This document shows, piece by piece, positions 1 through 19,143 of a stretch of DNA of 44,765 nt (positions are counted from its first letter, which is position 1; each line of letters begins with the position of its first letter). Source of the DNA: Halomonas alkalisoli (GTDB taxonomy: Bacteria > Pseudomonadota > Gammaproteobacteria > Pseudomonadales > Halomonadaceae); contig NZ_JAKCMI010000008.1 in the NCBI RefSeq assembly GCF_021412585.1, positions 1-44,765 on the forward strand, given 5' to 3'. The notes under the pieces were generated by a model. The model made no database searches and had not been told where the DNA came from. It saw nothing but the letters and a program-made list of their open reading frames with translations. The translations under genes were made by a program, and so were the position numbers.

Positions 1-596
1 ATGGGCTTCTTCTTGGCCTTCATGATGTCGGGCAGCTTGGCGTAGCGCGGCTCGTTGAGGCGCAGGTCGGTGGTGACGATAGCCGGCAGGGTCAGCTCGA
101 CGGTCTGCAGGCCGCCGTCAATCTCACGGGTCACCTGCAGCTTGTCTCCGTCGACCACGACTTCCGAGGCGAAGGTGGCCTGGGGCAGGCCGGCGAGTGC
201 GGCCAGCATCTGGCCGGTCTGGTTGTTATCGGTGTCGATGGCCTGCTTGCCGAGGATCGTGAGACCCGGCTGCTCCTCCTCGACCACCTTGGCCAGCAGC
301 TTGGCCACGGCCAGCGACTCGACGCGCTCATCGGTTTCGACATGAATGGCACGGTCGGCGCCCAACGCCAGGGCGGTACGCAGCTGCTCCTGGGCGGCCT
401 TGGGGCCGATGGTTACTGCCACGACCTCAGTGGCCACGCCATTTCCCTTCAGCCGCACCGCCTCTTCCACGGCGATCTCGCAGAAGGGGTTCATGGCCAT
501 CTTGACGTTGGTGAGGTCAACGTCGGAATGATCCGCCTTGACGCGGATCTTGACGTTGTAGTCGATGACGCGTTTGACCGCGACGAGGATCTTCAT
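1..596 (-). CDS. etfB: Electron transfer flavoprotein beta subunit, partial at window edge
   Basis: The reading frame starts at an ATG at 596 with an AGGAGAGAA-type ribosome site and runs off the left edge, giving 198 residues of a protein that is normally about 250. It opens [14 protein letters not shown] and contains [15 protein letters not shown] and the ETF-beta-like stretch around [23 protein letters not shown], all typical of EtfB. In this family the beta subunit holds AMP, pairs with EtfA around an FAD, and carries electrons from flavin dehydrogenases to the quinone pool. EtfA would be expected just outside the window. The gene lies 20 bp downstream of fpr on the same strand, at the end of the flavoprotein/ferredoxin array. 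It may serve that array, or it may be the housekeeping ETF. Confidence 0.93.
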
Positions 597-616
597 GGTT
601 CTCTCCTGGCTGTCAC

Positions 617-1396
617 TCACTTTTCGACGAAGGCCCGCTCGATCACGTAATCCCCCGGCTCGCCCTGCTGTGGGCTGGCCTCGAAGCCCAGGTCGTCGAG
701 CATGGCGGTAAGGTCGTCGAGCATGCCGGGGCTGCCGCACAGCATCACCCGGTCGCTCTCGCGGTTGAGCTGGGGCAGGCCGATGTCGGCGCACAGCTTG
801 CCGCTCTCGATCAGCGACGTGATGCGTCCCTGGTGGCGGAACGGCTCGCGGGTCACCGTGGGGTAGTAGATCAGCTTGTCGCGGATCGCCTCGCCGAGAA
901 ATTCATGCTCGGGAAGCTCCCGTGTGATGTGGTCGTGATAGGCCAGCTCGCTGGCGTAACGCACGCAATGCACCAGCACGACCTTGTCGAAGCGCTCGTA
1001 GACCTCCGGGTCCTTGATGATGCTCATGAAGGGCGCCAGGCCAGTGCCCGTGCTGAGCAGGTAGAGATGCTTGGCCGGGGTCAGGTCATGGACCACCAGG
1101 GTACCCACCGGCTTGCGGCTCACCATGATCTGGTCGCCCTCCTTGAGGTGCTGCAGGCGCGAGGTGAGCGGGCCGTCGGGCACCTTGATGCTCAGGAACT
1201 CGAGGTAGTCGTCGTGGTTGGCGCTGACGATGCTGTAGGCACGCATCAGCGGCTTGCCCGCAACCTCGAGGCCGATCATCACGAAGTGACCGTTCTCGAA
1301 GCGCAGCGCCTGGTCGCGGGTGGTGCGGAAGCTGAACAGGGTGTCGTTCCAGTGGTGGACGCTCAGTACGTCGGCGGTTCCGATAGCAGCAGCCAT
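617..1396 (-). CDS. fpr: Ferredoxin--NADP+ reductase (Fpr type)
   Basis: A 259-residue FAD-dependent reductase that moves electrons between NADPH and ferredoxin or flavodoxin in the cytoplasm. The FAD-binding RAYSIVSA motif (RxYS), the [12 protein letters not shown] nucleotide-binding turn, the LCGSPGM motif and the ending VIERAFVEK are those of bacterial subclass-I Fpr, whose usual length is 257-260. An upstream in-frame ATG at 1417 exists, but the ATG at 1396 has GGAGGAAAG seven bases before it, so I use 1396. It sits 60 bp after the YeiH-like exporter and 20 bp before etfB. Two ferredoxin genes lie in the same array, so a role in reducing or oxidising them is an obvious inference. Confidence 0.95.
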
Positions 1397-1456
1397 GGGC
1401 TTTCCTCCAGTCGTCATGCATCGAAGCGATGCGGGGGTAAAGGCTTGTCGTTGAAT

Positions 1457-2467
1457 TCAGGCCACCGGCAGCAGCGCCAGTAGACCCACTACCGTCAGTG
1501 CCAGCCCGGCGCTCAGGGCACAGAGCAGCGACAGCGGGCGCCAACCCTGGCCCAGCAGGTCGCGCACCGAGGTACGCATGCCCAGCGCCGCCATGGTCAC
1601 CAGCAGGCACCACTGGGAGGCACTGATCATTAGCTCCCTCAGCCCCGGCGTCAGTAGCCCCAGGCTGTTGGCAGCGAACAACGCCACGAAGCCGAGCAGG
1701 AACCAGGGGAATTCGCCGGTGCCGCTCTCGCCGCGCCGCAGCAGCACGCCGAGCAGCAGCACCAGCGGGACGAGCAGAGCCACGCGCAGCAGCTTGGTCA
1801 GCGTCGCCACGTCGCCGGCGGCATCCGAGACGAGATAGCCCGCCCCCGCCGCCTGGGCCACGTCGTGAATGGTGGCGCCGAGGAACAGGCCGCTGGCGAC
1901 ATCGCCATAGCCGAGCAGCGCGGTCAGTGGCGGCAGGCCAAGCATGGCGGCGGTGCCCAGCGCCGTGACGCACACCACCACGCCGAGCAGGCGGCGCTCC
2001 TCGAGGCGCCCGGCGGGCAGCACGGCAGCCACCGCTACCGCCGCCGATACGCCGCAGATCGCCACCGCTGCGCCGGCCACCAGGCTGTGCAACGTCGGCA
2101 ACCCTAGCCAGCGGCCCAGCCACAGCGCCGCGCCGATGGTCAGCGGTACGCTGGTAAGCACCACCGCCAGCGGCAGCCAGCCGACTTCCTGCAACTGGGC
2201 GAGGCCGATGCGAGCCCCGAGCAGGGCGACACCCAGGCGCAGCACACGCCGCGCGCAGAAGCCGATCCCGGGCTGCAGGCGTGCCTCTCCGGCCTGGCCA
2301 GAGAAGCCGAAGCCCAGAAGCAGGGCGAGCAGCAGCGCCGGGGCGCCGTAATGCTCGGCCAGGAAACTCCCGGCCAGCGCCAGCACGCCACACAAGGCCA
2401 CCCCGGGATAGAGGTGCTTGAGCGCGGCCCAGGACGGCGCCAATGCGAGCGGAACGGGGGCGCTCAT
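1457..2467 (-). CDS. YeiH/UPF0324 family putative sulfate exporter
   Basis: A 336-residue, strongly hydrophobic inner-membrane protein with about ten membrane segments. It carries the family signatures RVLRLGVALLGARI, AICGVSAAVA and GATIHDVAQAAGAGY. The family (PF03601) is annotated as putative sulfate exporters because some members sit beside sulfonate-degradation genes, but direct transport data are scarce. The start ATG at 2467 shares one base with the TAA of the upstream DUF971 gene (TAATG), so the two are translationally coupled. In this locus it follows an Apr-like flavoprotein set and a sulfonate/nitrate-type ABC importer. Export of an oxidised sulfur product is a reasonable hypothesis, not shown by the sequence. 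Confidence 0.88.
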   Translation of the reverse strand: MSAPVPLALAPSWAALKHLYPGVALCGVLALAGSFLAEHYGAPALLLALLLGFGFSGQAGEARLQPGIGFCARRVLRLGVALLGARIGLAQLQEVGWLPLAVVLTSVPLTIGAALWLGRWLGLPTLHSLVAGAAVAICGVSAAVAVAAVLPAGRLEERRLLGVVVCVTALGTAAMLGLPPLTALLGYGDVASGLFLGATIHDVAQAAGAGYLVSDAAGDVATLTKLLRVALLVPLVLLLGVLLRRGESGTGEFPWFLLGFVALFAANSLGLLTPGLRELMISASQWCLLVTMAALGMRTSVRDLLGQGWRPLSLLCALSAGLALTVVGLLALLPVA

Positions 2468-2799
2468 TACACCGTCTCGCCCAGTTCGCGCAGGTAGGCC
2501 CAGGGAAAGACGCCGCGGCTGTGGCCGTCGGAGAAGAACAGCTGCAGGCCGCTGACACCGAAGGGCTTGGCGTCGACCACGGTGATGTCGGCGTCGTACA
2601 GCGCCAGGCGGCCGCTGCGCTTGGCATGCAGGCAGCTGGAGCAGGCACAGGCGGCCCGCAGCGCCAGGCAGGAGAGCCTGTCCGTGCGGCCATCCGGCCA
2701 GCGGATCTCCACCTCCCGCGTGCGACGGTTCAGGTGAAGGCCGTCGGGCGGGGCGATGGTGTGACGAGAATCTTCCGGTGAGTTGGCAATGGCAGTCAT
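2467..2799 (-). CDS. DUF971 (GBBH-like N-terminal domain) protein
   Basis: A 110-residue protein made almost entirely of the DUF971 domain. That domain is also the N-terminal zinc-binding domain of gamma-butyrobetaine hydroxylase. Visible hallmarks are LHLNRRTREVEIRWPDG near the start, the Cys/His cluster CACSSCLH (about residues 50-57), and the ending GVFPWAYLREL. In stand-alone form the function is unsettled; some relatives are linked to Fe-S assembly. AGGAGGT lies just upstream of the ATG. Its stop overlaps the start of the YeiH-like gene. Placement between a ferredoxin and the exporter suggests an accessory role in the Apr-like redox module. Confidence 0.85.
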   Translation of the reverse strand: MTAIANSPEDSRHTIAPPDGLHLNRRTREVEIRWPDGRTDRLSCLALRAACACSSCLHAKRSGRLALYDADITVVDAKPFGVSGLQLFFSDGHSRGVFPWAYLRELGETV

Positions 2800-2818
2800 G
2801 GCGACCTCCTGGTGTCAG

Positions 2819-2863
2819 ATCCGTGAGACTTATATCCGTGAAACTTATATTCGTGAAACAAGG
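2819..2863. repeat. Three tandem 15-bp units
   Basis: Three head-to-tail copies of a 15-bp unit of the form ATCCGTGARACTTAT lie at 2819-2833, 2834-2848 and 2849-2863. The first two differ at one base and the third is degenerate. The array sits directly upstream of the DUF971 ribosome site and spans the stop of the possible small gene at 2845-3021. It could be slippage-generated spacing or a repeated operator; nothing in the sequence decides between these. Confidence 0.75.
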
Positions 2864-3021
2864 GGCAGCCGGTCGCGCAGGCACAGCATCGGCACCTCCG
2901 CGAGCGGGGCGGGAACGGTCACGTCGACCATCGGCCGGGCGCTGTCATTGACGCTGGCGCCCAGCACGACGACCAGCAGCGCGAAACGTACGCGGCAACT
3001 CGTCATGACAAGTTGGCGCAT
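2845..3021 (-). CDS. Possible small secreted or membrane-anchored protein (58 aa)
   Basis: A 58-codon frame begins three bases after the fdxA stop and ends in TAA inside the 15-bp repeats. The N-terminus is basic and then hydrophobic (RVRFALLVVVLGASVNDSA), like a signal peptide or single membrane anchor. It is followed by a short proline- and valine-rich tail with one cysteine. I do not recognise a family. In its favour are the close spacing in a uniform minus-strand operon and the signal-like start. Against it are its shortness, the lack of a strong ribosome site, and an alternative internal ATG. It fills what would otherwise be a 225-bp gap between fdxA and the DUF971 gene. Confidence 0.35.
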   Translation of the reverse strand: MRQLVMTSCRVRFALLVVVLGASVNDSARPMVDVTVPAPLAEVPMLCLRDRLPLVSRI

Positions 3022-3024
3022 GCC

Positions 3025-3348
3025 TCAACGCTCCAGGTACTGCAGCTTCTCCCCCCGATCGACCCAGACGTCGGCCTCCCCCAGCGGCAGGCGGGTCTCA
3101 CGGATCACCGGCCACACCTGGGCGAGTTCGGCGTTGATCTCGAGGAAGTGCGCCTGATCTGGCGGCAGTTGGTCGTCGGCATAGATCGCATCCGCCGGAC
3201 ACTCCGGCACGCACAGGGAGCAGTCGATGCACTCCACCGGGTCGATGACGAGGAAGTTGGGCCCTTCGTGGAAGCAGTCCACCGGGCATACCTCGACGCA
3301 GTCGGTGTATTTGCAGCGGATGCAGTTTTCTGTGACGACGTAAGTCAT
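3025..3348 (-). CDS. fdxA: 7Fe ferredoxin FdxA
   Basis: A 107-residue soluble electron carrier of the [3Fe-4S][4Fe-4S] type. The N-terminal cysteine pattern [17 protein letters not shown] is followed by the second cluster motif [12 protein letters not shown] near residues 40-51. The C-terminal tail containing WPVIRETR and the ending GEKLQYLER match FdxA of proteobacteria, whose length is 107. The ATG at 3348 is preceded by GGAGATAAG. It lies 98 bp after the HEAT-repeat gene on the same strand. Together with the AprB-like ferredoxin and Fpr it offers a plausible route between the flavoprotein and NADP(H), although FdxA is also a common housekeeping carrier. Confidence 0.95.
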
Positions 3349-3446
3349 GGTCTTATCTCCTCAAGCACGCAGCGGGGTCCGGCCAGGCAGCGTGCCACCT
3401 GGCCATCATGCGAAGCGTTTCATGCCAATTCCGGGCGAAAGCTGGT

Positions 3447-4406
3447 TCAGGCAGCGTTGTCGAGCTGCGACTGCGCCCAGCGCGCCAGCTTGCGCACGTC
3501 CGGATCCGGATCGTCGAGAGCCAGCTCGATGAACGGGCGGCACTCCGGCTCGGCGATGGCGCCGAGCGCGCCGATGGCCGCCTTGCGCAAATTGCTCATG
3601 GGGTCCCGGGCGCACTCACCCAGCGCCGGTACGGCTGCCACTACGCGCAGCTTGCCCATGGCCTCGGCGGCTTTCTCACGCACCTGCCAGGTAGCGTCGC
3701 GGCTGGCAACGATCAGCGACTCGAGCCCGGCCTGGTAGTCGAGCTTGCCGATGCCGATGGCAGCCTCGCAGCGCACCTGCCAGTGCGGATCGCCAAGGAT
3801 CGTCACCAGCGGTGGCCCCACCCGCTCACGCGCCGCATAGACCAGGGAGCCGGCCGCGGCGCGGCGCACCTCGGGGTCGGCATCGCACTTGGCGCGGTCG
3901 ATCAGTGCCGGCAGGTTTTCCTCGGCCTTGAGCCAGCCGAGCACGCCCACCGCCTCGCGGCGAACGCGGGCATCCTCATCGCTCAGGCGCTGCAGCGCCG
4001 GGGTCTGGGCTGCCACAACGCGCAGCGGCTTGAGCGCCCGCAGGATGCCGGCCACCACGAAGGGATCGTCGCTGCGCTCCAGTGCGGCGAGCAGCGGCGG
4101 TGCGACGTTGGGGTCCTTGAGGTCGGCCAGGGCGTGGGCGGCGGCGTTGCGCACCACCTCGTCGCCATCGCTCAATGCCGCCAGCAGCGAGTCGGCGATA
4201 TCTTCGGCATCGAACTCATCGACCACCTTGGCCGCTTCCTGGCGCACCGCGGCGTCATCGTCCTTGAGTGCCTGGATCAACAGCTCGGCGGCCTCGGGCT
4301 CGCCCGAATCGACCAGCGCCAGCACCGCGACGCGGCGAATGCCGGGGTCCGGGTCGGTGAGCTTGTCGGCGATGTCCTGCAGCTCGGGATCGTCGTAGCG
4401 TTTCAT
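3447..4406 (-). CDS. HEAT-repeat protein (PBS-lyase-type repeats)
   Basis: A 319-residue cytoplasmic protein built from about ten consecutive helical repeats of roughly 31 residues with a DPDPxVRxxAAxALG-like consensus. Clear units are DPDPGIRRVAVLALVD, DDDAAVRQEAAKVV, DGDEVVRNAAAHALA, DADPEVRRAAAGSL and DPDPDVRKLARWA. HEAT solenoids are protein-binding scaffolds, and the PBS-lyase subclass often sits next to Fe-S or flavin enzymes. Nothing marks it as an enzyme. GAGGTGA, overlapping the stop of the upstream ferredoxin, serves the ATG at 4406, so it is coupled to that gene. I infer an assembly or scaffold role for the Apr-like flavoprotein/ferredoxin pair; its partner is not known. Confidence 0.88.
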   Translation of the reverse strand: MKRYDDPELQDIADKLTDPDPGIRRVAVLALVDSGEPEAAELLIQALKDDDAAVRQEAAKVVDEFDAEDIADSLLAALSDGDEVVRNAAAHALADLKDPNVAPPLLAALERSDDPFVVAGILRALKPLRVVAAQTPALQRLSDEDARVRREAVGVLGWLKAEENLPALIDRAKCDADPEVRRAAAGSLVYAARERVGPPLVTILGDPHWQVRCEAAIGIGKLDYQAGLESLIVASRDATWQVREKAAEAMGKLRVVAAVPALGECARDPMSNLRKAAIGALGAIAEPECRPFIELALDDPDPDVRKLARWAQSQLDNAA

Positions 4407-4409
4407 GGC

Positions 4410-4643
4410 TCACCTCAGCAGATAGGGGATTTCGACCTTGACGGCATCGGTCGGACAGTCGGCCTCGCAGGGCATGCAGTACCAGCATTCGTCGTAGCGC
4501 ATATGCGCCTTGCCGGTGGCCGGATTGATCCACAGCACGTCGAGCGGGCAGACGTCGATGCACACGGTGCAGCCCTTGTCGGCGATGCACTTGTCCTCGT
4601 CGACGATCACCGGGACGCTGGTGCGTTGCGTTGCAGTCGGCAT
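4410..4643 (-). CDS. AprB-like 2[4Fe-4S] ferredoxin
   Basis: A 77-residue ferredoxin with two four-cysteine motifs: CIADKGCTVCIDVCP (about residues 19-33) and CWYCMPCEADCP (about residues 53-64). The first motif has an enlarged loop after its first cysteine, and a tryptophan lies inside the second. Both recall the beta subunit of adenylylsulfate reductase, but the long C-terminal tail by which AprB wraps AprA is missing (AprB is about 150 residues). It is 41 bp downstream of the flavoprotein gene and three bases upstream of the HEAT gene. The likely role is the electron-transfer subunit of that flavoprotein. An independent ferredoxin is the alternative. Confidence 0.88.
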   Translation of the reverse strand: MPTATQRTSVPVIVDEDKCIADKGCTVCIDVCPLDVLWINPATGKAHMRYDECWYCMPCEADCPTDAVKVEIPYLLR

Positions 4644-4684
4644 GGTTTCCTCTCCTCGAATTCGGTTGTTCGCGCCTTGGGGTC

Positions 4685-6418
4685 TCAGGCGTTGGCGGCC
4701 TTCTGCACACGCAGCTTCTGGTAGGCGTCCTTCTCCTCGCCGAGCTCGACGATGTAGGGCGCCACCGGGCGCTTGCCGTGGGCCATGTTGCCGTTCTCGT
4801 CCTTGTACAGACGGGTATGGCAGAACCAGTCGGCATCGTTCTGCTCCGGGCAGTCGACGCGATAGTGGTAGAGCCCCCAGCGCGACTCGGTGCGATAGAG
4901 CGAGGCGCGGGCGGCCATCTCGGCGCAGTCGATGATCGAGTGCACTTCCAGCGCACGCAGCAGCTCGTGGGGGTCGGTGGCCTGCAGGAGGTGCAGGTCA
5001 TCACGCACGGCGAGAATGCGCTGCAGGCCAATCTCCATCTTCTTGGTCACCTTGGGCGGCTGCAGGTAGTCGTTGACCAGGCGGCGCACCTTGTACTCCA
5101 TCTGCGACGGAGGGATGCCATCGGCCACCTTGAGCGGCGCCTGGATGCGTTCGAGCTCCGCGGCGATGAAAGCCTCGTCGAGGGCCGGCAGGTCGCGCTC
5201 CTTGGCGAAGGCAGCCGCACTCTCACCGCAGATCTGGCCGTAGACGAAGGCGCCGAGCATGTAGGCATGGGCCACCGAGGCCATGTCGCCAGCCCCGAAA
5301 AGGCCCGGCACGGTAGTGGCTCCGGTCTCGTCGACCCACACGCCCGAAGCGGAGTGTCCCGAGCAAAAGCCGACCTCGGAGATGTGCATCTCCACCATGT
5401 TCTGGCGGTAGTTGGTCTCACGGCCGTCGTGAAAACGACCGCGCGAGGGCCGCTCATTGGTGTGCAGGACGGTCTCGATCTCCTGGATCGTTTCCTCGGC
5501 CAGGTGATCGAGCTTGAGGAACACCGGGCCATTGCCACCCTCCAGCTCCTTGAAGAACTCCAGCATCATCTGGCCCGACCAGTAGTCGCACTCGATGAAA
5601 CGCTCGCCCTGGGAATTGGCGGTGAAACCGCCGAGCGGGCCTGTCACGTAGGCACAGGCCGGGCCGTTGTAGTCCTTGAGCAGCGGATTGATCTGGAAGC
5701 ACTCGAGGTTCGCCAGGTCCGCTCCGACGTGATAGGCCATGGCGTGGCCATCGCCGTTGTTGGCGGGGTTCTCGTAGGTACCGAACAGGTAGCCCGAGGT
5801 CGGCAGGCCGATGCGTCCGGCGGCCCCGGTGGCCATGATCACCGCCTTGGCGCGGATGATGATCGGCTCCGCGGTGCGGGTATTGACGCCGACCATTCCG
5901 GCGATGCGGCCATCGGCGTCCTTGAGCAGGCGGGTGGCCTGGTAGCGGTTCTCTATCTGCACCCGGTTGCGACGCAGGCGACGGTAGAGGATCTTCTTGA
6001 CGTTGTGGCCCTCCGGCATCGGCAGCACGTAGGTGCCGAGGTGGTGGACCTTCTTCATGTCGTAGTCGCCGGTCTCATCCTTCTGGAAGTGCACCCCCCA
6101 GGAGTCGAGCTTCTCGATCATCGGGAAGGAGCGCTGGGCATAGGCCATCAGTGCCGGCTGGTGGACGATACCGTCGTTGGCGATAGTGATCTCCTTGACG
6201 TACTGCTCAGGCGTCGAATGGCCGGGGACGATGGCGTTGTTGAGCCCGTCCATGCCCATGGAGATGGCGCCGCTGCGCTTGACGTTGGCCTTCTCCAGCA
6301 GCATGACCTTGAGGCTCGGGTCCTGCTCCTTGGCGGTGACGGCCGCCATGGGGCCGGCGGTTCCGCCGCCAATGACCAGCACGTCGGTGTCGATGACGGG
6401 AATGTTGCTTACGTTCAT
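4685..6418 (-). CDS. FAD-dependent oxidoreductase, AprA-like member of the FrdA/SdhA superfamily
   Basis: A 577-residue flavoprotein. The dinucleotide fold is VIGGGTAGPMAA (residues 15-26). Next comes LEKANVKRSGAISMGMDGLN (42-60), which mirrors the AprA segment after the FAD fold and lacks the histidine that holds FAD covalently in SdhA/FrdA. CSGHSASGVWV near residue 352 resembles the AprA active-site segment with its histidine. TVPGLFGAGDMA (369-380) is the second FAD contact. It is somewhat shorter than AprA (about 620-660). The start ATG overlaps the gntR stop (ATGA), with GGAGGAATC inside gntR. Database labels for such proteins are often fumarate reductase/succinate dehydrogenase, but the neighbours are transport, ferredoxin and ETF genes and there is no membrane anchor. 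The substrate is unknown; sulfur-compound oxidation or reduction is an inference. Confidence 0.87.
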   Translation of the reverse strand: MNVSNIPVIDTDVLVIGGGTAGPMAAVTAKEQDPSLKVMLLEKANVKRSGAISMGMDGLNNAIVPGHSTPEQYVKEITIANDGIVHQPALMAYAQRSFPMIEKLDSWGVHFQKDETGDYDMKKVHHLGTYVLPMPEGHNVKKILYRRLRRNRVQIENRYQATRLLKDADGRIAGMVGVNTRTAEPIIIRAKAVIMATGAAGRIGLPTSGYLFGTYENPANNGDGHAMAYHVGADLANLECFQINPLLKDYNGPACAYVTGPLGGFTANSQGERFIECDYWSGQMMLEFFKELEGGNGPVFLKLDHLAEETIQEIETVLHTNERPSRGRFHDGRETNYRQNMVEMHISEVGFCSGHSASGVWVDETGATTVPGLFGAGDMASVAHAYMLGAFVYGQICGESAAAFAKERDLPALDEAFIAAELERIQAPLKVADGIPPSQMEYKVRRLVNDYLQPPKVTKKMEIGLQRILAVRDDLHLLQATDPHELLRALEVHSIIDCAEMAARASLYRTESRWGLYHYRVDCPEQNDADWFCHTRLYKDENGNMAHGKRPVAPYIVELGEEKDAYQKLRVQKAANA

Positions 6419-7173
6419 GATTCCTCCGATTTCCGATCCACTCGGAATTGGTATTTGAAGGCGTCCCCGCGAAAGCAGAGGTACTCGAAGTCGACCGGCC
6501 GACCGGCCCGGTCATAGGTCAGCCGCTCGACGCGCAGAACGGGCTCACCCATCCTGAGGTAGAGATGCTGCTGGGTTTCCTCGTCGCAGAGGGTGGAGTC
6601 GATGGCGATATCCGCCGCGCCCAAGAGAATGGCAAAACGGTTCTCCAACATCGGGAAGATGTCGCCGGAGAGATCCTGACCGAACAGCCGCCGGCCGATG
6701 TCCATGGGGAAGTAGCTGCTCTCCAGCGAGACCGGCTCGCGGTTGAGGTAGCGCACCCGCTTCACCTCCACCACGGCGTCCCCGGAGCGCAGCCCGAGTG
6801 CGGCGGCCACCGCCTTGCCCGGCTTGCACTCCTGGATCGACAGCAGCCGAGCGGTGGCTTCATAGCCTTGCGCCGCCATCGCCTCGCCGAAGCCCTGCAG
6901 GCGCTGCACGTTCTGCACTGCCTTGGGCTTGCTGACGAAGGTGCCCTTGCCCTGGGCAGAAAACACCAGCCCCTCGTTGTGCAGGTCGCGCAGGGCCTGG
7001 CGAATGGTGATGCGGCTCACGCCAAAGCTCTTCATCAGCGCGTTTTCCGACGGCAGCCGCTCATGGGGCGAGTAGCCGCCCTCGAGGATGTTGCGACGCA
7101 GGGTGTCGCGGATCTGCACGTAGAGCGGCTGTGGCGAGTCGCCCGGTTGTAGCTTGAGTTCCTGGCTCTTCAT
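6415..7173 (-). CDS. GntR/UTRA (HutC-subfamily) transcriptional regulator
   Basis: A 252-residue regulator. Residues about 15-80 form the GntR winged helix (PLYVQIRDTLRRNI, ERLPSENALMKSFGVSRITIRQALRDL, GKGTFVS). The rest is a UTRA effector domain (ARLLSIQECKPG, VVEVKRVRY, VSLESSYFP, VLRVERLTYDRAGRPVDFEY). HutC-type members usually repress the linked transport and catabolic genes and release DNA on binding a small pathway ligand. The gene lies between the ABC transporter genes and the flavoprotein, with a 4-bp overlap to the latter. A perfect 14-bp palindrome is 17 bp upstream of its start. It is therefore the likely local sensor of the compound handled by this locus. Confidence 0.93.
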   Translation of the reverse strand: MKSQELKLQPGDSPQPLYVQIRDTLRRNILEGGYSPHERLPSENALMKSFGVSRITIRQALRDLHNEGLVFSAQGKGTFVSKPKAVQNVQRLQGFGEAMAAQGYEATARLLSIQECKPGKAVAAALGLRSGDAVVEVKRVRYLNREPVSLESSYFPMDIGRRLFGQDLSGDIFPMLENRFAILLGAADIAIDSTLCDEETQQHLYLRMGEPVLRVERLTYDRAGRPVDFEYLCFRGDAFKYQFRVDRKSEES

Positions 7174-7189
7174 GGTCGTTGCCTCTTGT

Positions 7190-7203
7190 CATGACATGTC
7201 ATG
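7190..7203. promoter_or_regulatory. 14-bp perfect palindrome upstream of gntR, candidate operator
   Basis: CATGACATGTCATG is a perfect palindrome in the 64-bp gap between the ATPase stop and the gntR start. It fits a dimeric regulator site placed to block gntR and flavoprotein transcription. The 8-mer GTCATGTC that overlaps it also occurs at 9130-9137 in front of the permease gene, supporting a shared regulator. The sequence does not match the usual HutC core GTnTAnAC, so assignment to this GntR protein is by position only. Confidence 0.5.
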
Positions 7204-7237
7204 TCGTGTGAACGACAAGGGCATGCCGAACTCCGGT

Positions 7238-8107
7238 TTAGCTCGCCTGGTTCTGCTGCTCGAAGGCGCGCAGCGTCTGCTCGCGGATCAATGCCAAACA
7301 CTCGCGCTTGACCACCATGAACGCTGCCGTGGTCAGCAGTTCCTGAGTACGCGGGCGCGGCAACCGCACGGGTATGTCGGCGATGATTCGCCCCGGGCTC
7401 GCGCTCATGACCACGATGCGGTCGGAGAGGAACACCGCTTCGTCGATGTCATGGGTGACGAACAGCACCGTGTTCTTGAACTCGCTCCAGATCTCGAGCA
7501 GGTTCTCCTGCATCATGCTGCGGGTCTGGGCATCCAGCGCCCCGAAGGGTTCATCCATCAGCAGAACGCTGGGATAGTTGGCCAGTGCCCGGGCGATCCC
7601 CACACGCTGCTGCATGCCACCGGAGAGCGTGGAGGGATAGGCGTTGGCATAGCGCGACAGCCCTACCAGTGAGAGAAAGGTGCTCGCCACGCTGTCGGCC
7701 TCCCGCGAACTCACACCCGCCATCAGCGGGCCGAAGGCGACGTTCTGTTTCACCGTCTTCCACGGAAACAGCGAATGCTGCTGAAAGACCATGCCGCGGT
7801 CGGGCCCTGGCTTGGCAACCGCCTGACCATCGAGCAACACTTCGCCCCGGGCCGGTTTGACGAAGCCGGCCACGCTGTTCATCAGGGTCGACTTGCCGCA
7901 GCCGGAGGGGCCCAGCAGCGAGACGAACTCGCCCGGCTGGATTTCGAGGCTGGCGTCTTCCACCGCGAGGTGGGGGCCATTGGTGGTGGCAAAGACGATA
8001 TCCATGTCGCGCACGCTGATCCTGCCCTTCCCCCCCACCGTGCGCGGACGGTAGCTGTGAGGGTGCTCGACGACAGCGGCGCGGTTGAGTCGGGTCGTGG
8101 TCATCAT
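7238..8107 (-). CDS. ABC transporter ATPase, nitrate/sulfonate/taurine class
   Basis: A 289-residue ATP-binding subunit of the SsuB/TauB/NrtD type. Walker A is GPSGCGKST, the signature is LSGGMQQRVGIARAL, and Walker B is SVLLMDEPFGALD followed by the D-loop; the switch histidine is in FVTHDIDEA. An N-terminal extension of about 35 residues precedes the domain. The start at 8107 forms ATGATG overlapping the TGA of the permease gene, so the two are translationally coupled. It powers import of the solute delivered by the binding protein at 9481-10863. Its class covers nitrate, sulfonates, taurine, cyanate and pyrimidine precursors, so the class does not fix the substrate. Confidence 0.93.
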   Translation of the reverse strand: MMTTTRLNRAAVVEHPHSYRPRTVGGKGRISVRDMDIVFATTNGPHLAVEDASLEIQPGEFVSLLGPSGCGKSTLMNSVAGFVKPARGEVLLDGQAVAKPGPDRGMVFQQHSLFPWKTVKQNVAFGPLMAGVSSREADSVASTFLSLVGLSRYANAYPSTLSGGMQQRVGIARALANYPSVLLMDEPFGALDAQTRSMMQENLLEIWSEFKNTVLFVTHDIDEAVFLSDRIVVMSASPGRIIADIPVRLPRPRTQELLTTAAFMVVKRECLALIREQTLRAFEQQNQAS

Positions 8108-9027
8108 GACTTGGCCCCCTCGGTCTGCCAGCGCAGCAGCGGCGAACATGCCTTGCGGACCAGCAGGGTGCACAGCGAACCCAGCCCGCCGATGACCAGC
8201 ATGCCAATGATGATCTTGGGGTATTCGACCAGGGTGTAGGCCGACCAGGTGAAGTAGCCGATGCCGTACTGGCCGCTGATGATCTCGCCAGCCAATAGTG
8301 AGAACCATGCCACGCCCATGCCGATGGCGAGCCCCGCGACAATGCTCGGCAGCGCGCCGGGAAGCACCACGTGCCAGAGAATGGCGGCGTTGCTCGCCCC
8401 CAGGCTACGGGCTGCGCGGACCAGCATCTTGGGGGTCTGGTCGACACCGTGCACGGTGTTGATCACGATGGGGAACAGCGCGCCGAGAAAGGTGATGAAG
8501 ACGATGCTCGACTGTTCGCTGGGCATCATCAGGATCGCCAGCGGAATCCAGGCCACCGCCGGGATCGGCCTCAGGATCTCGATGTAGGGCAGGATGACGT
8601 CCTCGGCGAAGCGCGAGCGCCCCATCATTACCCCCAGTACCACACCGATCACCACGGCAAGACCGTACGCCATGGCGATACGCTGCATGCTATGGAGAAT
8701 ATGAACGTAGAACTCCTGGCTCGAAGCCTGGGCCAGGAACTCTGCCCCCACTATCAGCGGCCCCGGCACGTTCTCGAAGCGCACGAAGAAGTCGAAGCCG
8801 TAGGTCGAGGCGAGATGCCAGCCGAGGGCCGCCACCAACAGCGCGCCGATACGCACCAGGTAGCGATCCCAGTTCGTGGGCAGGTAACTCCGGGATTCAC
8901 CGAGCTGCGTGCCGGCAGGCGTCGCTGTAACAGGGCTGGCCTCGATCGAGGGTCGCTCGGAAGATTCCAGCGGGCCAGACAATACAGCCTCTGAGAGTGG
9001 TGGGTGGGGCTTAGGGTTCAAGCTCAT
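8104..9027 (-). CDS. ABC transporter permease, nitrate/sulfonate/taurine class
   Basis: A 307-residue inner-membrane permease with about six membrane segments after a 60-residue polar N-terminal tail. The cytoplasmic EAA-type loop RAARSLGASNAAILWHVVLP contacts the ATPase. The motifs EILRPIPAVAWIPLAI and FPIVINTVHGV are typical of the SsuC/TauC family. A GTG at 9045 would extend it by six residues, but AGGTGA stands correctly before the ATG at 9027. It is separated from the binding-protein gene by a terminator and a 450-bp spacer with its own candidate operator, so it probably has its own promoter. Confidence 0.93.
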   Translation of the reverse strand: MSLNPKPHPPLSEAVLSGPLESSERPSIEASPVTATPAGTQLGESRSYLPTNWDRYLVRIGALLVAALGWHLASTYGFDFFVRFENVPGPLIVGAEFLAQASSQEFYVHILHSMQRIAMAYGLAVVIGVVLGVMMGRSRFAEDVILPYIEILRPIPAVAWIPLAILMMPSEQSSIVFITFLGALFPIVINTVHGVDQTPKMLVRAARSLGASNAAILWHVVLPGALPSIVAGLAIGMGVAWFSLLAGEIISGQYGIGYFTWSAYTLVEYPKIIIGMLVIGGLGSLCTLLVRKACSPLLRWQTEGAKS

Positions 9028-9412
9028 GGGGTCACCTTTCGTCACGGGAGCGTGTCAACGCTACGCTGTGGGTAGTGAATCCGGCTCTTATTCTGTGGCC
9101 GTTGCCGGGAGTGAAGCTTGTACTAACAAGTCATGTCATCTACCCAGTAAGTTGCATCAGCCGTGCCAATATCCCCCAAAGCCTTTCCAAGGATTTAATC
9201 CAAAAGGAATTTTTACTTTACCGCCATATTGGAAACGAACTCTTGGCGGATTCATCAGCGCGCCCGCATGGTGCATATCGTCATTGAGTGGCGCCAGCTT
9301 GAAGCGATCTTCGCCTCATGAAGACGAAGAACTTATAACAAGTAGTACAAGTCGCTCCGAAAAATCGATAGCCGACTTGAAGATCCAAGGCAGGAATCGG
9401 AAAATGAAAAAG
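9028..9412. other. Intergenic spacer before the permease gene
   Basis: About 385 bp without a convincing gene. It is more AT-rich than its neighbours (for example the stretch 9185-9240) and holds the inverted repeat at 9117-9130. It presumably contains the promoter of the permease-ATPase-gntR-flavoprotein transcript. No clear sigma70 hexamers could be assigned. The short reading frames here start poorly and resemble no family. Confidence 0.5.
9117..9137. promoter_or_regulatory. Inverted repeat in the permease leader, candidate regulator site
   Basis: CTTGT-ACTA-ACAAG (9117-9130) is an inverted repeat with 5-bp arms, immediately followed by GTCATGTC, which recurs in the gntR-proximal palindrome. 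The 9-mer CTTGTACTA also occurs upstream of the binding-protein gene at 10895-10903. The arms resemble the TTGT...ACAA arms of HutC-subfamily operators. It is about 90 bp upstream of the permease start, where an operator would be expected. Confidence 0.4.
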
Positions 9413-9444
9413 AAAAAAACGGGGCACGGTAGAAACCGTGCCCC
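9413..9444 (-). terminator. Rho-independent terminator after the solute-binding-protein gene
   Basis: A perfect 9-bp GC-rich stem (GGGGCACGG at 9421-9429 paired with CCGTGCCCC at 9436-9444) and a 6-base loop are followed, in the minus-strand direction, by GTTTTTTTC. It starts 36 bases after the stop at 9481. It would uncouple abundant binding protein from the membrane components. Confidence 0.92.
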
Positions 9445-9480
9445 TGGAACTCATAAACCAGATATCTGAAGGTCTTTGAG

Positions 9481-10863
9481 TCAATTCGTCATGGCAAGAG
9501 CTTCCTCACCGGAAGCGGACAAGGCAATCATCCTGCCGCCATTATCGGCCATATATGCTTCAGAATCGGCACGCTTCATGAATGCCACGACTTCGCCATC
9601 GGGCGTTTCAGAAAGAAAGGCTGCCTTGCCGAACATCTTGATCCCGCTGTGATGATCATAGACATAGGTGGCATATACTTCCTGGCCTTCGCCACTGGCG
9701 TCACGAAAAGCCGTTACCATATCAGCGATGCTGTCATACTCGACGACCCCATCATCGGCGAACCATATCTGTGCAGGCTTGAGCTCGGGATTGCCGGCAA
9801 CAGGTGTGACCATGCGCTCAAGATCGGCGGCATAATCCAATCCAGACGCCTCATAGGCACGGCGTATGTAACTGTCATCGACCCAGGCGTCGAAGTTGAG
9901 GTCGGGAATATCGCGCTCGTCCTGCAGCAAAGCATGGTCGTACTGCAACGCATCGACCCACTCCGACTTGATGGTGGCATCCATGGTGCTGATACCGCCG
10001 TCGCTGAGGTAGAGATAGAGCACCTCCTTGGCCACACCGGTCCACTCGCTAAGCTGGACTGCGGCGCGCATCGGATCCTCCTCGATCCACTGCTGTGCCT
10101 CCAACGTAGCTTCCAGCACGGCGTCGACCACCTCGGGATAACGGTCGGCGAAGTCCTTGCGCACCACGATGCCATGGAACGTCGGCACGCCCGCCTCGCT
10201 ACCGTCGAAGATCTTGCGCCCGGTGCCGCGGAACTCCATCACCTCCGACCAGGGCCCGAAGTCGGCATGCGCATCGATGCGGTTGCCGGCAATGTTGGCC
10301 ACGCCCACCGGCGGACTCTGGTCAACGATGGCGATCTCACCGTCCAACCCCGCGTCGCGCAGTGCCTTGAGCGTCATGCCCCAAGCAGCGCTGCCCACCG
10401 GCGTGGAGATGCGCTTGCCGGCCAGCTCCTCCAGTGAGTAGACGTCGGAGGCCACCGGCACCACGATGCCGTTGCCGGTCCCCTGCCGGTTATAGCCGGT
10501 CACGGCGATGAAGCGGGTCTCGTTGCGCCCGGTGGCCTGGAAACTGGCCCCGTTGACGATCAGCGGATAGTCGCCCATCACGCCGAACTCCAGGTTGCCG
10601 GCCATCATCTGATTGGTGATGGGTGGGCCCGAATCATAGTCGCGAAAGATGCTCTCGTATTCGGCGTCGGCGTAGTCGCCATCCGTTGGTAGATATTTCT
10701 CGATAAGGCCAAGCTTCTCCAGCACGATACCGCCCGCCACGGTATTGGTAACCATGCTTTGGTGGCCAATGCCGATGGAAATTCGCTCCGCCAGGGCGTG
10801 GCCACTGGCAAGGAGCAGTGAGCCCAATAAACAGCCGCCAACAAGTCGGTTCCAGTTCTTCAT
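9481..10863 (-). CDS. ABC solute-binding protein with NosL-like C-terminal domain
   Basis: A 460-residue periplasmic protein. Residues 1-25 are a signal peptide ending ALA. Residues about 28-340 are an NMT1/SsuA-type binding domain (GDYPLIVNGASF, LAGKRISTPVGSAAWGMTLKAL, VVDAVLEATLEAQQWI). This class binds nitrate, sulfonates, taurine and similar anions. The protein is about 120 residues longer than usual. The extra part, about 355-450, reads AQIWFADDGVVEYDSIADMV, then YDHHSGIKMFGKAAFL and VAFMKRADSEAYMADNGG, a pattern I recognise as NosL, the copper chaperone family of nitrous oxide reductase. The CxxCGM metal motif of NosL is absent and no cysteine remains after the signal peptide. The gene begins the locus and has its own terminator. 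Confidence 0.88.
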   Translation of the reverse strand: MKNWNRLVGGCLLGSLLLASGHALAERISIGIGHQSMVTNTVAGGIVLEKLGLIEKYLPTDGDYADAEYESIFRDYDSGPPITNQMMAGNLEFGVMGDYPLIVNGASFQATGRNETRFIAVTGYNRQGTGNGIVVPVASDVYSLEELAGKRISTPVGSAAWGMTLKALRDAGLDGEIAIVDQSPPVGVANIAGNRIDAHADFGPWSEVMEFRGTGRKIFDGSEAGVPTFHGIVVRKDFADRYPEVVDAVLEATLEAQQWIEEDPMRAAVQLSEWTGVAKEVLYLYLSDGGISTMDATIKSEWVDALQYDHALLQDERDIPDLNFDAWVDDSYIRRAYEASGLDYAADLERMVTPVAGNPELKPAQIWFADDGVVEYDSIADMVTAFRDASGEGQEVYATYVYDHHSGIKMFGKAAFLSETPDGEVVAFMKRADSEAYMADNGGRMIALSASGEEALAMTN

Positions 10864-11139
10864 GTCCAGGCACCTCCGATCAGGGTGGGTTGTACTTGTA
10901 CTATCCGGTCATTACCTTCACCCTTTGATCTGCAGAGCGCGTGCCATCCTGCACGGCTTTGCACTTATCTGCATGATTCGAATAAGGGAAACATTGCCCT
11001 GCACCAGGTTAAACGCTTATGCAACAACCCCCATGTTGCGCACTATGCGTGCGCAACATGGGAGTTTCGGCATCATCATGGCGCAACCAATTGAGCGCCG
11101 AATAAGACAACTAGAACAAATGGATTCAAGGCTAAGAGT
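10864..11139. other. Intergenic region with promoter of the binding-protein gene
   Basis: This gap lies between the peptidase stop and the binding-protein start, both genes on the minus strand. It contains CTTGTACTA (10895-10903), which is shared with the permease leader, and the long inverted repeat at 11030-11062. No gene is visible; the short frames here have no family resemblance. Confidence 0.5.
11030..11062. promoter_or_regulatory. Perfect 14-bp inverted repeat with 5-base loop
   Basis: CCCATGTTGCGCAC (11030-11043) is perfectly repeated in inverse as GTGCGCAACATGGG (11049-11062). It lies 78 bp downstream of the peptidase stop and about 165 bp upstream of the binding-protein start. No T-run follows on either strand. 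It may be an operator or upstream activator site for the binding-protein promoter, or an RNA hairpin that ends or protects the peptidase transcript. Confidence 0.6.
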
Positions 11140-13282: not shown

Positions 13283-14269
13283 TTACCCTCCCGTCATGTT
13301 CATGAAGCGAACCACCTGCACTTCGCCGTCGGTGGTGAAGTGGTGCCGCTCGGGCTTTTTTTGCATGGCGGCGACGATGGCGGCCTTGAGCCGTTCGAGG
13401 TCGCCGGGGTGGCGGCGCATCACCGCGCGCAGGTCCACCGAGTGCTCGTTGCCCAGGCACAGCAGCAGGCGGCCCTCGGCGGTGACTCGCACGCGGTTGC
13501 AGGCAGCGCAGAAGTTATGGCTGTGAGGTGAGATGAAGCCGATGCGCGAGTCGCTGTCGGCCATGCGGAAGTAGCGCGACGGCCCCAGGGTGTTCTCGGT
13601 GGTGGGCACCAGGGCATGGCGCGACTCGATACGCGCACGCACCTCGTCGCTGGAACAGAAGGTCTCGGCACGGTCGTGGCCGATGCTCTGGCCCAGGGGC
13701 ATCTCCTCGATGAAACTGATATCCACGCCTTCGGCACGGGCAAACGCGACCAGGTCGAGCACTTCGTCGTCGTTGCGCCCCTTGAGGATCACGGCGTTGA
13801 GCTTGATGCGTTCGAAACCGGCATCGCGGACGGCACGAATGCCATCGATGACCTTGTCCAGGCTGCCGGTGCGGGTCAGTTCACGGAAGCGGTCGGAATC
13901 CAGGGTGTCGAGGCTGATATTGAGACGCTTCAGGCCGCCTTGCCGCAGGGCCGGGGCGTGTTTGACCAGGCCGGCACCGTTGGTGGTCATGGCGAAGTCA
14001 CGCAGACCCTCGAGGGCACCGATCTCGGCCACCAGCCCTGCCAGGCCGCGACGCACCAGCGGTTCGCCGCCGGTCAGGCGGATCTTCTCCACGCCGAGCT
14101 CGACGAAGGCCCTGGACAAGGTGGCCATCTCTTCCAGGGTCAGCACCTGGGCGCGAGGCAGGAAGGTCATGTCCTCGGCCATGCAGTAGACGCAGCGGAA
14201 GTCGCAGCGGTCGGTGACCGACAGGCGAACGTAGCGAACGGTGCGACCGAAGCCGTCAGTCAGGCTCAT
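13283..14269 (-). CDS. moaA: GTP 3',8-cyclase MoaA
   Basis: A 328-residue radical-SAM enzyme that starts molybdenum-cofactor synthesis by converting GTP to the cyclised precursor with MoaC. The N-terminal cluster is CDFRCVYC with the usual DRC lead. [13 protein letters not shown] follows, and the C-terminal cluster is [18 protein letters not shown]. The protein ends in the double glycine needed for activity. The ATG at 14269 overlaps the stop of the DGC-domain gene (ATGA). It is the last gene of the nar-linked array and supplies the cofactor for NarG. No terminator is obvious after it. Confidence 0.97.
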
Positions 14270-14721
14270 GGGTTTTCCTCGGCTATTGCCCCGGCTCTTG
14301 TCTCGGCTCTTGTCTCGGCTCTTGCCTCGACATGGGCCGCGGCATCCATCGGCAGCCGGGCGATCAGCTCGCCGACCTGCTCGGCCACTTCGACGACGGT
14401 TTCGTCGTCGAAGCTCTGGCCGCGGCGCTTGCGAAAGCCCTGCTCGTAGAGCTTGACGTGTTGGGTGGCGACTACGCCCGCCCTGTCCAGGCAGTGGGTA
14501 ACACAGTGCATCTGACAGCCGTCGATGGCGACGATGGGGCGCCCGGAGCGGGCGGTCTTCACCAGGCCGGGCACGCCGCCGCCCACGCCGGCGATGCAGG
14601 ACATCTCCGCCACCCCGGTGTGGTCGAGCGCCAGGGCGACGTCGTTGGCCAGCTGCGCCACGTCGGAGCAGCCGGAACAGGAGTAGACCAGGGTGCGAGG
14701 TTTTCTAGCGGTTCGGGACAT
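14266..14721 (-). CDS. DGC-domain putative zinc-binding protein
   Basis: A 151-residue cysteine-rich protein. It has [15 protein letters not shown] near residue 13, SCIAGVGGG, and the name-giving [12 protein letters not shown] near residue 67. Members of the DGC family (PF08859) are small putative metal-binding proteins often found beside anaerobic respiration genes; their biochemical role is not established. The C-terminus carries a short RAET repeat encoded by 12-bp tandem units. The stop overlaps moaA, and 44 bp separate it from the upstream regulator gene. A role in metal or cofactor handling for nitrate reductase is inferred from position only. Confidence 0.85.
14281..14328. repeat. Four 12-bp tandem units at the 3' end of the DGC gene
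   Basis: The units are GGCTATTGCCCC, then GGCTCTTGTCTC twice, then GGCTCTTGCCTC. They encode the degenerate RAET tail of the DGC-domain protein. The repeat is in frame, so copy-number change would lengthen or shorten the tail without breaking the gene. Confidence 0.8.
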
Positions 14722-14765
14722 GGTTCCCCCCCCTCATTGCAACACGCCGCCCCGCGCCGGCGACG

Positions 14766-15509
14766 TCAGTCGTCGGCCAGCATGGCGTCGCGCAGCTTCT
14801 GCTCGTCGAGCACCACCAGGCGCTGGCGGTCGATGCTGATGACATCGCCATCGCGCAGCTTGGCCAGCAGCCGCGAGAGGGTCTCCGGCGTCATGGCGAG
14901 CTGGGCGGCGAGCCAGCGCTTGGGAATGGAGAGACGCACCACCCGCGGCGACCTCGAGCGACCGGCGGGCAGCTGGCGCAGGATATAGCTGACCAGCCGC
15001 GACATGGCATCGGCCTGGGTCAACAGGGCCAGGTCCTCGAGGCGCTCGGTGAGTTCCAGGGCCAGACGGCTCATGAATTCGGCGCGGCAGGCGGGCTGGC
15101 GATCCATGATGTCGCGACAGCGCTGGGCCGGTATGGCCAGCACATGGGTGCGACGCAGCGCTTCCGCCGAGTAGAGATAGACGCCGGCACTGGAGACCAT
15201 GCTCAGCTCGCCCAGTGTGCCGCCGCGCTCCACGCAGCGGATGGTAGCCAGGCGGCCGTCGCCGGCGGAACGCGCCAGGCGCACGGCGCCATTGATGACG
15301 ATATAGAGCCAGTGGGCCGGGGCATCCTGCCGAAACAGCCATTCACGGGTCTTCAACGCGTGGAGCTCAGAGTCCTCCAGCAGCGAGGTCACTTCGTCTT
15401 CGTCGAGCTCACCCAGCCAGGGCACACCATTCACCAGCTCGCGAAGCTGCTTGGGCTTGAACAGCAGGTCAGTCGACGAACTGTCCGGCAGGCAGATAGG
15501 GGTATTCAT
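14766..15509 (-). CDS. dnr: Crp/Fnr family regulator, DNR type
   Basis: A 247-residue regulator with a cyclic-nucleotide-like sensor domain (LYIVINGAVRLAR, GGTLGELSMVS), a dimer helix and a C-terminal winged helix whose recognition helix MTPETLSRLLAKL has the E-xx-SR residues that read TTGA boxes. It lacks the N-terminal cysteine set that holds the FNR iron-sulfur cluster; only one cysteine occurs in the first 80 residues. That places it with DNR/NNR proteins, which sense NO through haem and switch on denitrification genes. It starts 41 bases inside the end of moeA with a strong GGAGGAAGG. It is the obvious candidate to act on the norC, nnrS and norEF-unit boxes in this window. The symbol is by similarity. 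Confidence 0.88.
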   Translation of the reverse strand: MNTPICLPDSSSTDLLFKPKQLRELVNGVPWLGELDEDEVTSLLEDSELHALKTREWLFRQDAPAHWLYIVINGAVRLARSAGDGRLATIRCVERGGTLGELSMVSSAGVYLYSAEALRRTHVLAIPAQRCRDIMDRQPACRAEFMSRLALELTERLEDLALLTQADAMSRLVSYILRQLPAGRSRSPRVVRLSIPKRWLAAQLAMTPETLSRLLAKLRDGDVISIDRQRLVVLDEQKLRDAMLADD

Positions 15510-16734: not shown

Positions 16735-17315
16735 ACACGCGCTCCTTGACCATGGTCAGGCACTTTCGGTAACGCCCGAGAGCCACACGCCTGCTGCTCG
16801 GGCATGACCATGGCGACGAAATTGCACGGCCGGGTGCGCGCATCGAGCTGGCTTTCGAGAATGCCGTCCCAGGCGGTGGCACAGGCCTTGGGCGAGCCGG
16901 GCATGGCGAAGATCAGCGTGCGGTTGGCCACGCCACCCACCGCCCGCGACTGGACGGTCGAGGTACCGATGCTCTCGAAGGAGAGCTGGCGGAACAGCTC
17001 GCCGTAGCCATCCACCGAGCGGTCGAAGAGCGGCGTCAGCGCTTCCGGCGTGGTATCCCGAGTGGTGAATCCCGTGCCCCCGTTGACCAGGATCACCTGG
17101 ATATCCTCGCGTACCACCCACTTCGAGACGACCGCGCGGATGCGGTAGATATCGTCGGGAACGATGCGCCGCTCCACCAGCGCATGGCCCGCCTCGGACA
17201 AGCGCTCGCTGAGCAGGTCGCCGCTGCCGTCGCGGTCGAAGCCACGGGTATCGGAGACGGTCAGCACGGCGATGCCGAGCGGTGCGAAGGGGGTATCGGC
17301 GTGAACATGGGCCAT
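16731..17315 (-). CDS. moaB: Molybdenum cofactor biosynthesis protein MoaB
   Basis: A 194-residue MoaB/Mog-fold protein. It shows IAVLTVSDTRGFDRDGSGDLL, the pterin-binding VNGGTGFTTRDTTPEAL and IFAMPGSPKACATAWDGIL. In bacteria MoaB/Mog adenylylate molybdopterin before molybdenum insertion by MoeA. The length and motifs fit MoaB of proteobacteria (about 170-190). It lies ten bases downstream of the parvulin gene and overlaps moeA by four bases. The short C-terminal tail after GSRALPK has no known function. Confidence 0.95.
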   Translation of the reverse strand: MAHVHADTPFAPLGIAVLTVSDTRGFDRDGSGDLLSERLSEAGHALVERRIVPDDIYRIRAVVSKWVVREDIQVILVNGGTGFTTRDTTPEALTPLFDRSVDGYGELFRQLSFESIGTSTVQSRAVGGVANRTLIFAMPGSPKACATAWDGILESQLDARTRPCNFVAMVMPEQQACGSRALPKVPDHGQGARV

Positions 17316-17325
17316 GGAATCTCTC

Positions 17326-18147: not shown

Positions 18148-18179
18148 GTCATTCACCTCAATAATCTTGCCGGAGCAGA

Positions 18180-18400: not shown

Positions 18401-18437
18401 CTTCGAGATTGCGAAGCCGAGCGCAGCCAGCTTGTGC

Positions 18438-19130: not shown

Positions 19131-19143
19131 GACAGTTCTCCTG

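Follow-up and report, generated by a model that had tools for sequence, protein, structure and literature searches.

Flavoprotein-ferredoxin enzymes of the Apr type are already known, among them adenylylsulfate (APS) reductase, AprAB, and the 3'-phosphoadenylylsulfate (PAPS) reductase of Methanothermococcus thermolithotrophicus (MtPAPSR; Protein Data Bank entry 8a8o). The sulfate-activating residues of AprA are Asn-A74, Trp-A234, Arg-A265 and His-A398 (PMC2211403), and Lys120, Arg121 and Ser122 bind PAPS in the PAPS enzyme, with Gln-A145 given for AprA (PMC10322725). The nearest published functional parallel to the gene set described here is AsfRABC of Pseudomonas putida S-313, which serves aromatic desulfonation with a flavoprotein, a ferredoxin and an importer and has a LysR regulator (PMC4267179). 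We analyzed positions 1 to 44,765 of contig NZ_JAKCMI010000008.1 of Halomonas alkalisoli (44,765 nucleotides; the window), which opens with an Apr-like flavoprotein gene accompanied by genes for a small ferredoxin, a HEAT-repeat protein and an ATP-binding cassette (ABC) importer. Relative to the known Apr-type enzymes, the HEAT partner and the set's own importer are points of difference.

A first-pass annotation of the sequence had listed thirteen genes of an undescribed Apr-like redox pathway. We count 12, all on the minus strand and occupying 1-10863 at the contig start of a 4.87-Mb genome, and profile searches bore out the families that had been named for them. No published description of the cluster was found in a literature search judged on titles and abstract openings; to that extent "undescribed" holds, although the parallel AsfAB system has been published.

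Affinity and active-site residues of the flavoprotein

The flavoprotein at the core of the module (577 amino acids; 4685..6418, minus strand) exceeded the cut-off of the family model NF006131 (PRK08275; 1036.9 versus 587 bits), and its nearest named relative among the matches listed was a 98% identical protein of Halomonas socia. It scored below the cut-offs of the AprA models (TIGR02061, 160.1 of 641.75 bits; NF005331, 279.5 of 557 bits) and of the SdhA/FrdA model TIGR01812 (158.9 bits, cut-off 567.3). Since NF005331 scored above TIGR01812, the profiles lean the same way as the trees described below, toward AprA. By both sequence and fold, the nearest solved relative is the PAPS reductase alpha chain of M. 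thermolithotrophicus (8a8o; 1.4e-60).

A maximum-likelihood tree was computed from 33 rows, including two PAPS reductase rows and no FrdA row, and drawn with midpoint roots; the tree program flagged long branches and unequal composition. In this full tree, the 12 rows of the family, drawn from proteobacteria, cyanobacteria and one actinobacterium, formed one group (99/99), which joined AprA plus PAPS reductase at 96/92 and lay outside SdhA/NadB. PAPS reductase, represented by its two rows, grouped with AprA at 100/100 with the flavoprotein outside. In all three trees that we built, the full one and two with rows removed, AprA plus PAPS reductase (or AprA alone) formed its own group with both supports at least 99, and the window flavoprotein stood outside it, as it stood outside the SdhA/NadB group (100/99 and 100/100). 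The first-pass annotation had suggested a tree with AprA, FrdA and SdhA and had named membership of a characterized fumarate reductase or dehydrogenase clade as the contrary outcome; in our trees, which hold SdhA/NadB rows and leave FrdA out, the flavoprotein falls in no such clade.

The residue alignment, which left out NadB and the row from locus L113 (locus numbers are our own), showed that the column of Asn-A74 is kept as Asn60 and that the column of His355 holds His in every AprA or PAPS reductase row covering it. We take His355 as the counterpart of His-A398, presuming Archaeoglobus fulgidus numbering. Other AprA positions are replaced: Arg-A265 by Leu246, Trp-A234 by Tyr215, Gly-A274 by Cys255, Phe-A277 by Val258 and Leu-A278 by Thr259 (Ala in some rows), so that Cys255 occupies the position of Gly-A274 in the AprA substrate channel. 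On the nucleotide side, the adenine pocket is replaced, the Gln-A145 column holds Val131, and the columns of Lys120, Arg121 and Ser122 of the PAPS enzyme hold Thr129, Tyr130 and Val131. That part of the sulfonyl-side residues is kept and the nucleotide-side residues are lost suggests the same flavin-sulfite chemistry with another leaving group. The columns of SdhA R286 and R399, which we take to be its dicarboxylate-binding arginines, hold Gly282 and Met387.

Judged from sequence, with profile scores, residues and trees in agreement, the flavoprotein is Apr-like and is neither an APS reductase nor a fumarate reductase; the first-pass annotation had likewise called it Apr-like and doubted a classical APS reductase function. 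The name "fumarate reductase/succinate dehydrogenase flavoprotein" carried by NF006131 and by NF010374 (PRK13800), the flavoprotein-HEAT fusion form, is at odds with the trees and residues and is not supported by them. In a Leptolyngbya member of the family (L143, 9058-10701), the flavoprotein is annotated without its FAD-binding N-terminus; the match begins earlier, which is probably an error in start-site annotation.

Partners of the flavoprotein and their recurrence

The 77-amino-acid ferredoxin (4410..4643, minus strand) has eight Cys residues of the [4Fe-4S] type, and its Trp54 shares the column of AprB Trp-B48, which bridges cluster and flavin adenine dinucleotide (FAD), and of the PAPS reductase beta Trp. 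A PAPS reductase beta-like ferredoxin of Ilyobacter has this electron-transfer Trp in common with it. The window protein ends in a short Pro-Tyr/Phe-Leu tail and scores 27.7 bits against a cut-off of 135.65 for the AprB model TIGR02060; the alignment confirms that the AprB tail is absent, as had been noted in the first pass. Next to it, the HEAT-repeat protein (3447..4406, minus strand; PF13646 5.9e-51) matches positions 637-895 of the 898-position fusion model NF010374 (117.8 bits). In Tsukamurella, flavoprotein and HEAT protein form a single chain of 893 amino acids, of which 12-570 matches the window flavoprotein (55%) and 619-858 the HEAT protein (32%, 4e-10). A query joining the two window proteins returned no natural fusion among the top 120 matches listed.

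The window set thus resembles MtPAPSR in being a flavoprotein with a ferredoxin, in having that enzyme as its best sequence and fold match and in the conserved Asn and His columns; it differs in that its flavoprotein lies outside AprA plus PAPS reductase, its PAPS residues are replaced, and a HEAT protein and an importer stand on its side. The likeness to AprAB is in the kept Asn-A74, the invariant His, the Trp-B48 position and the family join in the full tree, and the difference is in the replaced residues and in the HEAT protein that the window set has in place of any AprB tail.

Relatives of the locus numbered at least 591 confirmed, of which the best 80 were kept for gene counts; as these are the closest relatives, the sample is biased. 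Neighboring genes were called by codon usage, because calling the longest open reading frame with BLAST support was misled by shadow reading frames in GC-rich DNA. The flavoprotein gene was called in 79 of the best 80 loci, and ferredoxin and HEAT genes lay within 7 kb of it in 79/79. Among the 66 loci with at least 7 kb on both sides, the importer was represented by its ATPase in 57, its binding protein in 55 and its permease in 54 (all three in 53), GntR was found in 55 and DUF971 in 54, and FdxA, Fpr and YeiH were found in 27, 18 and 14, respectively.

In an independent sample of 398 genomes of one phylum, Pseudomonadota, 21 passed the NF006131 cut-off, the window genome included, with a gap between scores of at least 1036 and of at most 218 bits. 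Around the other 20 positives, in regions of about 20 kb each, ferredoxin, HEAT and DUF971 genes were present in 20/20, and the importer genes (for binding protein, permease and ATPase) in 18/20 (the exceptions being L114 and L132). The importer lay on the opposite strand in six loci of this sample (L126-L130, L133), and the gene association therefore outlives rearrangement. The recurrence in 79/79 and 20/20 loci sets the association of flavoprotein, ferredoxin and HEAT protein beyond chance, so the co-occurrence check proposed in the first pass was borne out and its contrary outcome, neighbors not kept together, was not observed; a chance neighborhood is ruled out by the same counts.

The module is patchy: it occurs in 3 of 81 genomes of the window's taxonomic family, window genome included, and 52 records of a plasmid collection, some of them chromosome-sized, carry a copy of 60-80% identity. 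It is also present in cyanobacteria and actinobacteria. A 300-base query taken from L134 matched nothing when searched against plasmids. On the Nostoc edaphicum plasmid pNe_5 (L148, 8992-15147), the flavoprotein and ferredoxin genes are separated in the annotation by genes for two HAD hydrolases, a methyltransferase, a GNAT protein and a VOC protein.

The importer consists of a periplasmic binding protein of 460 amino acids of the SsuA/TauA/NMT1 type (9481..10863), a permease (8104..9045; PF00528 7.1e-25; NtrB, SaoP, SsuC and TauC models below cut-offs) and an ATPase (7238..8107; PF00005 5.3e-34; SaoA, nitrate and taurine ATPase models below cut-offs), all on the minus strand. TauA and SsuA head the sequence matches of the binding protein, and SsuA and TauA its fold matches; the fold comparison covered residues 25-351 of the model, excluding the C-terminal domain, and nitrate- or bicarbonate-related chains came within about 1.4 to 2.6 Z of the best fold scores. 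The protein stays below the curated cut-offs (TIGR01728, 104 of 163.5; TIGR01729, 69.6 of 304.25). In SsuA of Xanthomonas citri, Gln36 and Gly68 are sulfonate ligands (PMC3839906). They align with Gln35 and Gly79 of the window protein, which are invariant in an alignment of 44 rows, made up of the window protein and the products of 43 among the 62 genes of 430-520 amino acids; the column of SsuA Ser141 holds Ala or Thr. The binding-protein family comprises 69 genes, of which 7 fall outside 430-520 amino acids (3 below 400, 1 above 520).

The binding protein has its fold in common with SsuABC/TauABC, as well as the Gln and Gly that hold the sulfonate, and differs in the scores below cut-offs and in a C-terminal extension. 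In the window this extension is a NosL-like domain at about residues 363-446 (9526..9777, minus strand; PF05573 E 0.0019, below the Pfam cut-off). The domain is a trait of this group of binding proteins, matching at E ≤ 0.05 in 29/44 rows (best 5.7e-7). The sole Cys of the window protein is residue 11, outside the domain, and Cys-based metal binding of the NosL type is therefore not expected.

A GntR-UTRA regulator (6415..7173, minus strand; PF07702 2.3e-35, PF00392 2e-22) separates the importer genes from the flavoprotein gene. In two cyanobacteria (L153, 6673-8673; L143, 6400-8436) a divergent regulator is annotated as LysR, and toward its end the L153 protein shows weak NMT1-type similarity, as if it shared a ligand with the binding protein.

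The AsfA-like loci of Azospirillum, Paracoccus, Paenibacillus and Variovorax follow a similar plan, in which flavoprotein, ferredoxin and an NrtA/SsuA-type importer are clustered. Their flavoproteins are 25-34% identical to the window's over parts of the length, and six of them, assigned to AsfA by context and genus rather than by comparison with the S-313 sequence, form a separate long branch at 100/100. Two aligned AsfB-like ferredoxins (106 and 112 amino acids) are without the electron-transfer Trp, the AsfRABC regulator is LysR where the window has GntR, and neither HEAT nor DUF971 is annotated in the Azospirillum, Paracoccus and Paenibacillus plasmid regions, for which the gene table is incomplete. 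By these comparisons, the window set is of a lineage other than the AsfA-like rows so assigned. A Paenibacillus cellulositrophicus plasmid (L151, 5974-10944) has two tandem AsfA-like flavoprotein/ferredoxin pairs around one binding protein.

Predicted reaction and competing explanations

An organosulfur anion as the substrate, which the first-pass annotation had proposed together with the alternative of a related small anion, finds support in the similarity of the binding protein and in the sulfite/sulfate exporters of some loci, without being proven by them. The window's exporter is a YeiH-family putative sulfate/sulfite exporter (1457..2467, minus strand), which passed the PF03601 cut-off (3.7e-61; 207.1 bits, cut-off 24.5) and not the stricter TIGR00698 (114.8 versus 232.6 bits). 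YeiH lay within 9.5 kb in 17/80 and 6/20 loci and a TauE-like protein in 5/80 and 0/20, and in Leptolyngbya and Pseudanabaena genes for Mrp, YeiH and a TauE/SafE sulfite exporter come after the core.

On the side of electron supply, the window has FdxA (3025..3348; NF045490 159.3 bits, cut-off 135) and an Fpr-type FAD/NAD(P) ferredoxin reductase (617..1417; PF00970, PF00175), both accessory and on the minus strand. In ten loci, some of them from Thiobacillus, Halothiobacillus and Acidithiobacillus, Fpr is absent and an FAD/NAD oxidoreductase of about 1,150-1,200 amino acids is present (for example L018, 16805-20332), in which Pfam recognizes one domain, Pyr_redox_2; some copies end at contig ends. 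The same arrangement is annotated on the Acidithiobacillus caldus plasmid pTcM1. That this large protein stands in for Fpr suggests that the electron partner is NAD(P)H. Electron transfer flavoprotein (ETF) beta (3..596, minus strand; PF01012; incomplete at the contig start) was rejected as a module partner. It was close to the flavoprotein in 1/79 loci (1/66 with at least 7 kb of flank), and this rarity makes it a neighbor rather than part of the set; the proposal that electrons leave by ETF fails on the same count. Of the set described as self-contained in the first pass, importer, regulator, ferredoxin and exporter recur around the core and ETF does not; YeiH and Fpr are only accessories.

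We infer substrate, direction and activity of the module as follows. The importer-linked set of flavoprotein, ferredoxin and HEAT protein, likely forming one complex, is predicted to cleave a sulfonate-type anion reductively and to release sulfite, a tentative explanation that we place somewhat short of an even chance. The anion would enter through the SsuA/TauA-like binding protein and the ABC importer, with the GntR-UTRA protein in control. NAD(P)H would supply electrons, which would pass via Fpr, or via the oxidoreductase of about 1,170 amino acids in the ten loci, and FdxA to the 77-amino-acid ferredoxin, and from there through Trp54 to FAD. N5 of the reduced FAD would then attack the sulfur to give an N5-sulfite adduct and hence sulfite; the leaving group could be that of a C-, N-, O- or S-sulfonate. 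The HEAT protein may fill the docking role of the absent AprB tail, DUF971 (in the window a DUF971/GBBH-like_N protein, 2467..2799, minus strand; PF06155 1.6e-19) or Mrp may serve Fe-S assembly, and YeiH/TauE may export surplus sulfite or sulfate. We prefer the reductive direction, since the relatives carry out reductions and ferredoxin reductases turn up repeatedly.

The two rebuilt trees weigh slightly against this explanation. Without PAPS reductase and NadB, the family remained one group (95/94) and its join with AprA fell to 87/58; without the AsfA-like rows, NadB and L113, AprA/PAPS reductase attached beside the cyanobacterial members (81/70, 85/100). As the rebuilt trees differ, the placement of the family as one clade, sister to AprA plus PAPS reductase, is not robust.

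A reaction on the carbon part of the anion, in which the flavoprotein would oxidize or reduce it in the manner of fumarate reductase, sulfur would leave later or never and electrons would exit by the ferredoxins, seems unlikely to us in view of the Gly and Met in the SdhA arginine columns, the TIGR01812 score and the trees. We give an equally low probability to an imported anion free of sulfur, such as an oxyanion of nitrogen or carbon or part of a cofactor, with the Apr-like fold turned to other chemistry. It would suit the NMT1-type proteins of near-equal fold score that bind nitrate or bicarbonate, others of the fold that bind pyrroloquinoline quinone or pyrimidines, the lack of YeiH/TauE in most loci and the molybdenum-cofactor and narGHJI nitrate reductase block that adjoins the window set; it fits poorly with sulfonate binders as top sequence and fold matches of the binding protein, with activated sulfate as the substrate of the nearest solved flavoenzymes and with sulfite exporters downstream of the core in the two cyanobacteria.

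AsfA and AsfB are described as a reductase/ferredoxin pair required for aromatic desulfonation (PMC4267179, PMC2864759). If the shared plan of the AsfA-like loci extended to function, the window flavoprotein and ferredoxin would be a mere electron chain to a separate desulfonating oxygenase, as AsfAB has been read. We consider this distinctly improbable, for no oxygenase is among the 12 gene families found in at least 10 of the best 80 loci, no protein of the window genome passes the SsuD cut-off (a search that did not extend to TauD-type oxygenases), and the AsfA-like clade is separate, with aligned ferredoxins that lack the Trp. SsuD over cut-off does occur in 17/21 positive genomes, a count on positives only that is not evidence of enrichment. 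Very improbable, finally, is yet another APS or PAPS reductase serving sulfate assimilation, to which the Methanothermococcus enzyme as nearest solved relative would point: the residues contacting the nucleotide are replaced, the 12 window genes include no cysC/cysD, unlike the PAPS reductase-like Ilyobacter locus, and a CysH-model match (E ≤ 9.2e-27) is found in 21/21 positive genomes, over cut-off in 6. The window genome has two PF01507 matches, one of which is also the top match to the CysH model (95.4 bits, under cut-off). The stated absence of a sulfate adenylyltransferase was upheld for Sat-type ATP sulfurylase, with no PF01747 match genome-wide; this profile is also silent in E. coli and is uninformative on the CysDN type.

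Sulfonates are a major organic sulfur form in soil (PMC4267179). In its strongest form, the reductive sulfonate cleavage that we prefer would make the module a third Apr-type reductase beside APS and PAPS reductase, with oxygen-free cleavage through an N5-sulfite adduct, the HEAT protein replacing the AprB tail and Cys255 at the position of Gly-A274; this specific version is doubtful. If true, aerobes and denitrifiers, which otherwise depend on oxygenases, would free sulfite without oxygen, a reductive oxygen-free route would be added beside SsuD and TauD, and a widespread "fumarate reductase/succinate dehydrogenase flavoprotein" family would be a sulfur enzyme. In that case, the residues of the Apr fold responsible for the leaving group could also be told apart from those responsible for the sulfonyl chemistry.

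Transcription signals and neighboring genes

A terminator-like hairpin with a stem of 10 bp, 8 of them G-C pairs, and a T run lies in the gap between the binding protein and permease genes (9421..9444, minus strand). As this hairpin (9444-9421) lies inside the importer genes, a single transcript for all genes is not required. It stands out by quality and not by count, 5 terminator-like sites being found where 6.0 were expected; a scan of the window gave counts of promoter-like and terminator-like sites no higher than in shuffled sequence. No RNA element in the window reached its gathering threshold. A prolyl oligopeptidase gene and then, on the same strand as the module, molybdenum-cofactor genes (MoaA, MoeA, MoCF_biosynth) and narGHJI (13283-25308) lie beyond the module. 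An inverted repeat of 25 nucleotides with 84% complementarity (11019-11073), a candidate terminator or operator, lies 5' of the binding protein gene and 3' of the prolyl oligopeptidase gene.

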